NCBI RefSeq assembly: GCF_000304315.1
Contig: NC_018485.1
Span: 3,628,501-3,692,500, forward strand
DNA: 64,000 bases
Source: Methylocystis sp. SC2
Lineage (GTDB): Bacteria > Pseudomonadota > Alphaproteobacteria > Rhizobiales > Beijerinckiaceae
Direction of reading: 5' to 3'
Part shown: in pieces, positions 50,401 through 51,465 of the stretch
How positions within the stretch are numbered: position 1 is the stretch's first letter
Layout of the letters: each line of letters opens with the position of its first letter
Position numbers and translations under genes: made by a program
Notes under the pieces: model-generated
What the model was told of the DNA's origin: nothing
The model's database searches: none
The model's input: only the letters and a program-made list of their open reading frames with translations

Positions 50401-50673
50401 TTAAGGAGAGCCTAGGGGGAGGGTTGCGGGAGGTTCAACGCTTTTCGAGCGCCCGGAGACGCAACGCGAAGGCTTGTTCAAATGCGCCAGTTTTCGTCCT
50501 GGAGCCAGTCCCTTTTGCAGCTTGATTGACAGAAGGTTGCATTGACCTGAAACGTTCGGCGCTTGTTTCGTCCCGACGCTGGCGAGCGGCGCCAGGCCCG
50601 AGAAACGCGTCGTGGAAACGACTCTTCTGCCGCCCGATCTTCCCATCGGCTCAAAGGCCCGACAACGGGCAGT

Positions 50674-50703
50674 TTGACGCGTTAACCTTAAATTAAGGAT
50701 TAT
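50674..50703 (+). promoter_or_regulatory. promoter with CtrA-type box
   Basis: TTGACG (50674-50679) and GATTAT (50698-50703) are spaced 18 bases, and between them TTAA-N7-TTAA (50682-50696) matches the full CtrA binding consensus. This would put a transcript start near 50709, just ahead of the candidate small RNA. The spacing and both halves of the box are read directly; binding is inferred. Confidence 0.55.
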
Positions 50704-50708
50704 CGTGC

Positions 50709-50816
50709 AGCCTGAATGCGTCCCTTAAGTGGGACATTCGAGTGGCTTCTTCTCCACTCGTCCTTGATGCCTCCCTGTCAAGATGCCTTGAGAGCCGCCA
50801 TCGCGGCTCTCTTTTT
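50709..50816 (+). ncRNA. candidate small RNA with CU-rich loop
   Basis: No gene fits here, but a compact structured unit of about 108 bases does: hairpin GTCCC/GGGAC (50720-50735), a 7-bp hairpin CGAGTGG/CCACTCG (50739-50760) whose loop is CTTCTTCT, a single-stranded CCTCCC, and a terminator (9-bp stem 50790-50798 with 50803-50811, then CTTTTT). CU-rich loops able to pair with ribosome sites are a hallmark of alphaproteobacterial trans-acting RNAs. It could instead be an attenuated leader of rcdA. Ends are inferred. Confidence 0.55.
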
Positions 50817-50840
50817 GCGTTCGGCGTGGCCTCGTTAAGG

Positions 50841-50855
50841 TTAAGGAAAGGCTAA
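50841..50855 (+). promoter_or_regulatory. CtrA-like box before rcdA
   Basis: TTAA-N7-CTAA, one mismatch from the TTAA-N7-TTAA consensus, preceded by a further TTAA at 50835. It lies 80-94 bases before the rcdA ATG and after the upstream terminator, so it would serve rcdA alone. Confidence 0.45.
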
Positions 50856-50934
50856 GCGCGCGCCCTTCGGTCCTCTGCGTTACAGTCCATGCCATAGAAA
50901 GACGCAACCGCGTCGCATTTGCGTGAACGTTCGC

Positions 50935-51465
50935 ATGGCTCGAGTCAAAGGCAGCGCAGGGGAGAAGCAGCCGGTCTCTTTCATCGAGAGACTGGCGGGA
51001 TCCGAGGGCTTTTGCGCCCTGTTTCGCGAAGGAATGAGCCTCGTCGAGGAGGCCGCCTCCTATCTCGACGGCGACGGCCGTCTCGACGCGAAGGCGCTGC
51101 CGCGGACCGAAGCGCTCGCCTATGCGGCGGAAAGCATGCGGCTGACGACAAGGCTGATGCAGATTGCGTCCTGGCTGTTGGTGCAGCGCGCGGTGAATCA
51201 GGGCGAGCTGACGCGCCATCAGGCGGCGAGCAACCGCCATCGCGTCAAGCTTCGCGAACAGGAGCTGGCCTCGGCCCCGGAACTTTTTCAGCGCTTGCCG
51301 CACCGTCTGCGCGAGCTGTCGCTGCAGTCGCTGCGCCTGCAAGCCCGGATCATCCACCTTGACCGGCTGATCCATGCGCTCGAGCCGGCGCTCGCCGCGC
51401 CGGCGCCGGCCTCCAGTCCGGTCGAAGCGCAGATCGCGAGGCTGCGCGCCGCTTTCGCCCAGTAA
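50935..51465 (+). CDS. rcdA: CtrA-degradation regulator RcdA (DUF1465)
   Basis: A 176-residue helical protein of the DUF1465 family; Caulobacter RcdA is an adaptor that works with CpdR and PopA to deliver CtrA to ClpXP. Seen: SFIERLAGSEGFCALFREGM, SLVEEAASYLDGDGR, EALAYAAESMRLTTRLMQIA, a helix-rich middle, and a disordered Ala/Pro tail. I chose ATG 50935; a GTG at 50923 is possible and neither has a clear ribosome site. A CtrA-like box lies upstream, and cpdR is about 1.4 kb away. Confidence 0.85.
   Translation: MARVKGSAGEKQPVSFIERLAGSEGFCALFREGMSLVEEAASYLDGDGRLDAKALPRTEALAYAAESMRLTTRLMQIASWLLVQRAVNQGELTRHQAASNRHRVKLREQELASAPELFQRLPHRLRELSLQSLRLQARIIHLDRLIHALEPALAAPAPASSPVEAQIARLRAAFAQ

Follow-up and report, generated by a model that had tools for sequence, protein, structure and literature searches.

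A likely BjrC1505-family small RNA gene behind a CtrA-type box upstream of rcdA in Methylocystis sp. SC2

Does the gene-free stretch upstream of rcdA in Methylocystis sp. SC2 encode a small RNA, and is this RNA tied to CtrA through its promoter, its targets or its neighbour? A preliminary description had proposed a CtrA-controlled RNA with an anti-ribosome-site loop, forming a feedback unit with rcdA. We consider it likely that the stretch is a gene for a BjrC1505-family RNA of about 97 nt, with a full CtrA site over the −35 region and its own terminator before rcdA. This reading is built on computed results: the assignment to the family, the fixed box and where it lies in relatives, the terminator and the linkage to rcdA.

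The RNA gene and its family

Positions below refer to the window, that is, the whole stretch of 64,000 nucleotides that was analysed. The locus contains the following elements:

50674..50679, + strand: TTGACG, the candidate −35-like element of the preliminary description, present here but replaced by TTGGCG in two close relatives, L030 and L031 (sequence)
50682..50696, + strand: CtrA-type box 1, TTAA-CCTTAAA-TTAA, 8/8 (sequence; conserved in the order)
50698..50703, + strand: candidate −10 GATTAT, with a start near 50710 (sequence)
50708..50713, + strand: CAGCCT, a weak −10 where promoters of the order have TATTAC as consensus (profile applied by hand)
50720..50816, + strand: BjrC1505-family small RNA, about 97 nt, with predicted 5′ end (RF02356, R1, promoter profile)
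50720..50735, + strand: hairpin 1, GTCCC-TTAAGT-GGGAC, helix 1 of the family (fold, sequence)
50739..50760, + strand: hairpin 2, CGAGTGG-CTTCTTCT-CCACTCG (fold, sequence)
50764..50781, + strand: TTGATGCCTCCCTGTCAA, the presumed pairing strand (GAYGCCTCC in all 31 Rfam-found loci)
50769-50775, + strand: GCCTCCC (sequence)
50790-50811, + strand: stem of the intrinsic terminator, followed by T5 up to 50816, helix 3 of the family (sequence)
50841..50855, + strand: box 2 before rcdA, TTAA-GGAAAGG-CTAA, 7/8 (sequence; kept in genomes without the RNA)
50923..51465, + strand: rcdA, DUF1465 (PF07323, E 2.7e-53), first ATG at 50935 (ORF list, domain match)

The sequence thus holds the TTAA-N7-TTAA box, the two hairpins, the CCTCCC strand and the terminator that had been described, together with the second CtrA-like box before rcdA (TTAA-N7-CTAA). 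The stretch had also been called non-coding, and no convincing gene overlaps it: the ORF list offers one frame of 56 aa, which stops at 50696, and one long antisense frame (50725-51375) that overlies rcdA. The 157-nt stretch has a predicted folding energy of −65.9 kcal/mol (z −6.8), and none of 200 shuffles folds equally well. The upstream neighbour is an inositol monophosphatase gene on the opposite strand; on the 3′ side, rcdA is followed by the gene for ribosomal protein L31, also on the opposite strand to the RNA.

The Rfam covariance model RF02356 (BjrC1505) matches positions 50673-50816 (+) over its full length (140/140 positions) with 55.2 bits, above the gathering score of 50 (E 1.3e-7). 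Both the consensus strand GACGCCUCCCUGU and the GAGCCGC terminator of the Rfam family are found, the window letters aligned there being GATGCCTCCCTGT and GAGAGCCGC. By its covariance score, the window RNA is a member, and not a variant, of RF02356. The preliminary description knew of no named RNA at this place, and in this point it has to be corrected. A genome-wide search of the single 3.77 Mb contig gave a copy number of one. The first third of the Rfam model corresponds to positions 50673-50718, the promoter with its CtrA box, and many of the model's pairs there are non-standard in the window; this 5′ part of the model probably reflects conservation of the DNA rather than an RNA structure.

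Madhugiri 2012, the naming paper of BjrC1505, reportedly supported the RNA by Northern blots in Bradyrhizobium. In the literature searched we found no function for BjrC1505 or for its relative SmelC671/Sm84, and BjrC1505 is named in a table on Herbaspirillum without a link to CtrA. The same search, outside which subscription papers and supplements mostly lay, returned nothing that connects the BjrC1505/SmelC671 RNA with CtrA or rcdA, nor anything on DUF1465 together with a small RNA.

Relatives were retrieved by scanning genome contigs with a pattern for the RNA core, which gave at least 120 stretches (L032-L151) that are not a random sample. This core-only pattern was used along with R1, a covariance model of 48 sequences that starts just 5′ of hairpin 1 and contains no box, because promoter and neighbour were not to be assumed. 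R1 matches the window RNA at 50713-50816, the window RNA itself being one of its 48 rows. A further 31 loci (L001-L031) were found by the Rfam model including the box region and are therefore biased for the box; some of them repeat contigs of the core-only set (L016/L111 and L027/L135, for example). From a later set (L152-L211), 56 of 60 loci were analysed, with L154, L156, L165 and L166 left out.

Three helices are kept in the family: 95.9% of cells are paired and 8 of 17 pairs are changed on both sides, a level that none of 500 shuffles attained, in a test that favours the structure, since the same alignment supplied it and the search pattern predetermines parts of hairpin 2. The number of further pair types does not rise above the shuffles (259/500). 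For the terminator, helix 3, 95.6% of cells are paired, while its T-run is there by construction, the rows being cut at that point. In the pattern-found loci the hairpin 2 letters and GAYGCCTCCCTGT are likewise fixed by construction, and their invariance in alignment A1 proves little because the search pattern fixes them. GAYGCCTCC occurs in 31/31 Rfam-found loci, and CTCCCTGT is kept in most of the more distant R1 matches; the conservation of both suggests an RNA that pairs in trans.

In two genomes the RNA is present as a tandem pair with a spacing of about 200 nt: at L232 (G438; 1515-1613 and 1715-1813), where each copy has a perfect box, and at L233 (G270), with copies at 29-128 and 229-327.

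The promoter box and the linkage to rcdA

The promoter counts given first, for the core-only loci and the Rhizobiaceae sample, avoid the box-biased Rfam-found loci. Among the matches listed, 74 of 78 non-redundant promoters of core-only loci in Hyphomicrobiales carry the box at 7/8 or better, and 41 carry it perfectly; four loci with short upstreams (L036, L106, L123 and L148) were left out of this count. Other spacings (4, 5, 6, 8, 9, 10) give 0-2 perfect and 11-24 near matches in the same promoters. The Rhizobiaceae sample found by R1 presents a similar profile, with the box at 7/8 or better in 36/38 promoters (26 perfect). The combined order set has 127/134 at this level and 74 perfect among the matches listed, as compared with a mean of 14.7 near and 1.06 perfect boxes in shuffles of the 134 promoters. 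In AT-matched windows from the same loci, for which 95/134 loci were matched per draw on average, the corresponding rates are 4.1% and 0.6%. The promoter set comprises 175 of 242 upstream stretches, kept as non-redundant at 0.75, and its 'class' group of 41 promoters may include two genomes of the same order, G249 and G343.

When the 122 of 134 order promoters with a box of at least 7/8 within a chosen position range are aligned on that box, they read TTAAC, then TTAAGC, then a TATTAC-like −10 whose first base lies 26 bases beyond the start of the box. With that first base set at −12, as is customary, the 5′ end of the box lies at −38 of the start so predicted in these 122 promoters. According to passages of PMC4287350, late-cycle activation in Caulobacter is associated with full CtrA motifs near −35, and the box of ctrA P2 lies at −39. 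The placement near −35 is thus a property of the order profile; in the window, as in its clade, the −10 at the matching place is weak (CAGCCT), which leaves the exact start there ambiguous. The start near 50709 of the preliminary description moves to about 50720 by the order-wide profile, with GATTAT at 50698-50703 still standing as an alternative. With so weak a −10, the box could instead be flanked by the −35 and the −10, a position from which a bound regulator might act as a repressor.

The window genome encodes CtrA (G000:C1:2869057-2869662, 85% identical to the query), and the RNA promoter has the conserved TTAA-N7-TTAA expected of a member of the CtrA regulon. On these sequence counts, the link of the RNA to a CtrA-type box is firm in Hyphomicrobiales and uneven beyond the order. 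R1 matches occur in 89/101 genomes of the Rhizobiaceae sample and in 57/385 genomes of the class sample, for which the box counts rest on fetched loci and not on all of the 57. Among the distant members, the box is present in 26/34 genomes with CtrA detected versus 3/6 without (G371 and G383 left out), so that no clean association of box and CtrA emerges outside the order. Two small genomes, G412 and G422, have neither a detected CtrA nor a box; 8 genomes with CtrA also lack the box. In 17 distant CtrA-bearing genomes the RNA and box occur with no rcdA near. Three weak distant members (L246, L248 and L249, from G412, G422 and G206) have AAGCCTCCCTGTTA and a terminator with no box and no rcdA nearby, and in 2/3 of these genomes no CtrA was detected at E 1e-50.

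Within the order, the RNA is closely linked to rcdA. Among the matches listed, rcdA lies on the same strand directly downstream in 111 of 120 core-only loci; six stretches end too soon, and the three loci without it are L076, L077 and L141. The Rfam-found loci give 26/31, with one that ends too soon and four without (L006, L010, L019 and L025), and the Rhizobiaceae sample gives 49/50. L077, from a Bradyrhizobium MAG, is alone among the 151 loci listed in having rcdA upstream of the RNA and divergent from it. The upstream neighbour of the RNA differs in the two cases compared, being the inositol monophosphatase gene here and a DUF1192 gene in S. meliloti. Box 2 is perfect in 41/50 Rhizobiaceae loci; in a wider set it reaches 7/8 or better in 30/108 non-redundant loci, with 2-11 for other spacings. 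Among 15 relatives without a match to the Rfam model, R1 finds the RNA in 3.

Nine genomes of the same genus provide a natural comparison, for which about 650 nt preceding a motif within rcdA were read (L338 and L339 gave no result). No RNA was found upstream of rcdA in five of the nine (G003, G008, G011, G013 and G030). In G003, G011 and G030, box 2 is present whereas a recognisable RNA and box 1 are both absent. G013 is similar, with one additional 7/8 box match about 350 nt further upstream and no RNA behind it, and G008 shows near box matches only at the box 2 place. A decayed remnant of the RNA, lacking the T-run and any box at 7/8, lies upstream of rcdA in G007 (L334). In G034, box 2 and the 3′ half of the RNA remain where the contig ends; the RNA and the two boxes are all present in G002 and G024. 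Judged by these losses and the remnant in G007, the RNA is dispensable in the genus. Box 1 probably goes with the RNA, because three RNA-less genomes (G003, G011 and G030) lack box 1 and keep box 2; in the genomes compared, box 1 tends to accompany the RNA and box 2 tends to accompany rcdA.

The counterpart in Sinorhizobium meliloti

The rcdA locus of S. meliloti was taken from the record of strain Ak57 (L322), where R1 places the RNA at 2220-2326 with 36.8 bits (E 3.4e-7). The Rfam model gives no match in this locus at E 0.1 and stays below gathering in the related L323 (31.7 bits) and L229 (30.2 bits). The L322 record (CP090106.1, 3.72 Mb) is titled plasmid pSymB and carries rcdA and rpmE; its replicon label may be wrong.

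If its start is set 38 nt beyond the box start and its end at the last base of the T-run, the S. meliloti RNA is 100 nt long, which is also the length listed for SmelC671/Sm84 in PMC2873474. Passages of PMC3927594 describe RFMSmelC671 as a family that has a terminator and an open strand with conserved CUCCCUGU, shows extensive microsynteny and reaches as far as Bradyrhizobiaceae and Methylobacteriaceae; its main passages leave the microsynteny neighbour unnamed, and the supplement may name rcdA. By motif and length, not by coordinates, the S. meliloti counterpart is probably SmelC671/Sm84. In strain 1021, SmelC671 occupies 2986421-2986520. CtrA is not mentioned in the main text of PMC3927594 and PMC2873474, and a review table (PMC7143759) apparently assigns SmelC671 no promoter class and places it in nodule zone II.

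This counterpart bears on a puzzle at rcdA. As reported in passages of PMC4433202, ChIP-seq detected CtrA binding in the rcdA promoter region of S. meliloti, while rcdA expression was unchanged upon CtrA depletion. Both boxes are present upstream of rcdA in L322, at 2189-2203 and 2363-2377, both perfect (TTAACCGCAAATTAA and TTAACCCTTTCTTAA) and 174 nt apart. CtrA could be bound at rcdA without a response of rcdA because the binding is, at least partly, at the RNA promoter; binding at box 2 without effect is an equally open explanation. Several start sites are described for rcdA (atu3742) in each of the three agrobacterial lineages, and the CtrA site lies further upstream of rcdA than in Caulobacter, as stated in passages of PMC10469942; this is the pattern expected if the distal start belongs to the RNA. 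The passages seen of PMC10469942 and PMC4433202 do not mention this RNA.

We put forward, tentatively and as a proposal that falls just short of an even chance, that BjrC1505/SmelC671 is an order-wide CtrA-activated small RNA and that the promoter of this RNA is where part or most of the CtrA binding attributed to rcdA in rhizobia takes place. A CtrA-dependent small RNA located upstream would escape a measurement of rcdA.

Proposed mechanism, rival explanations and related RNAs

In the mechanism we favour, the CtrA site TTAA-N7-TTAA would cover the −35 region of the RNA promoter, and phosphorylated CtrA would activate the RNA, leading to a late-cycle peak. The RNA would act in trans, and its open strand GCCUCCCUGU might pair with G-rich ribosome-site regions and so lower translation of the mRNAs, perhaps with Hfq; these latter steps are put more cautiously than the first. 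In its simplest reading, the RNA would block ribosome sites bearing GGGAGG. rcdA would have its own box and stand beside the RNA gene without forming an operon with it.

The target searches bear on the pairing part of this mechanism. The seed AACAGGGAGG-N3-9-ATG occurs in 65/101 genomes of the order versus 61/101 for the permuted ACAAGGGAGG, and therefore gives no sign of selection beyond ordinary ribosome sites. The proposed anti-ribosome-site loop consequently fits in form, through its conserved CUCCCUGU, and draws no support from this start-codon test. In 8 genomes, ACAGGGAGG stands before an ATG in 46 matches; among the 30 examined, several gave the impression of transporter parts or secreted proteins. 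Against ctrA leaders, the open strand goes beyond z −2 in 1/10 genomes, with −0.74 to 1.41 in the others, in a duplex test that ignores accessibility.

This last result concerns the feedback circuit suggested by the preliminary description, in which CtrA makes the RNA and the RNA alters CtrA or RcdA at the level of translation. Such circuits have precedents: in passages of PMC8959179, the Caulobacter RNA CcnA, presumably CtrA-activated, acts on the ctrA and gcrA leaders through a CCCC loop, and in passages of PMC5928217, GspR represses ctrA in Sinorhizobium. The CcnA-like pairing with the ctrA leader was, however, found in the one genome out of ten only, by that crude test, and co-location alone makes no circuit because rcdA keeps its own box where the RNA was lost. 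The feedback unit is thus a hypothesis unsupported beyond co-location and precedent. Direct feedback on CtrA, though possible, is unsupported, and we judge the circuit as a whole improbable.

A different explanation would make the element the 5′ leader of rcdA, with a start at box 1, a fraction of transcripts reading through and the terminator acting as an attenuator. RNA and rcdA do share a strand, with the rcdA ATG about 118 nt beyond the T-run, and the agrobacterial starts and distal CtrA site (PMC10469942) would fit, although several starts are equally expected from two separate units. What makes a leader unlikely is that the terminator stem is kept (helix 3), that rcdA has a box of its own, perfect in most Rhizobiaceae loci and retained in RNA-less genomes, and that the RNA also occurs apart from rcdA, both in 7/144 assessable loci among the matches listed and in the distant CtrA genomes with RNA and box. 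We likewise give little credence to the view that the box is bound by another regulator, or that CtrA represses the RNA in this genus. Here the box does sit between the −35 and −10 first proposed, and passages of PMC4287350 describe repression from Caulobacter CtrA sites over −10 and the action of MucR and SciP at CtrA promoters. Yet the seven-base spacing, that of a full CtrA site, stands out from all spacings tested, and the order-wide box position is that of activated promoters.

If CtrA-activated transcription of a trans-acting RNA holds, CtrA would make, late in each cycle, an RNA with one conserved pairing strand and a set of targets. A catalogued RNA without a function would gain a predicted master regulator and a place in the cell cycle. 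If confirmed, this would add an RNA arm, comparable to Caulobacter CcnA, to what CtrA controls in nitrogen-fixing symbionts, methanotrophs and methylotrophs.

Of the known RNAs, BjrC1505 is the closest, since the window RNA matches the whole length of its model above gathering. SmelC671/Sm84 (RFMSmelC671; ReC71 in R. etli), 100 nt long and wide in Rhizobiales, likewise has variable hairpins on either side of an open CUCCCUGU strand, the terminator being the 3′ hairpin, according to passages of PMC3927594 and PMC2873474; the Rhizobium-Sinorhizobium group differs in hairpin 2 and in the strand 5′ of CUCCC. CcnA shares the CtrA box before the start and a C-rich pairing loop, a likeness by description only, but lies at the replication origin, and its authors found no clear S. 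meliloti homologue (passages of PMC8959179). EcpR1 and GspR of S. meliloti are small RNAs of the same order that act on cell-cycle mRNAs; both were rejected as the window RNA, being other loci, and EcpR1 has another conserved loop motif. SorY (RF02651) matches weakly at 50727-50816, with CCUCCCUGU in common, and its 20.8 bits are far below the gathering score of 111, so membership was rejected. Similarly, MmgR (RF00519) was rejected with 28.8 versus 41 bits on L119. Finally, L113 2872-3008 (−), from Mesorhizobium sp. L-8-3, presents a near-threshold match to RF02600 (BASRCI27), with 57.5 versus 59.8 bits.
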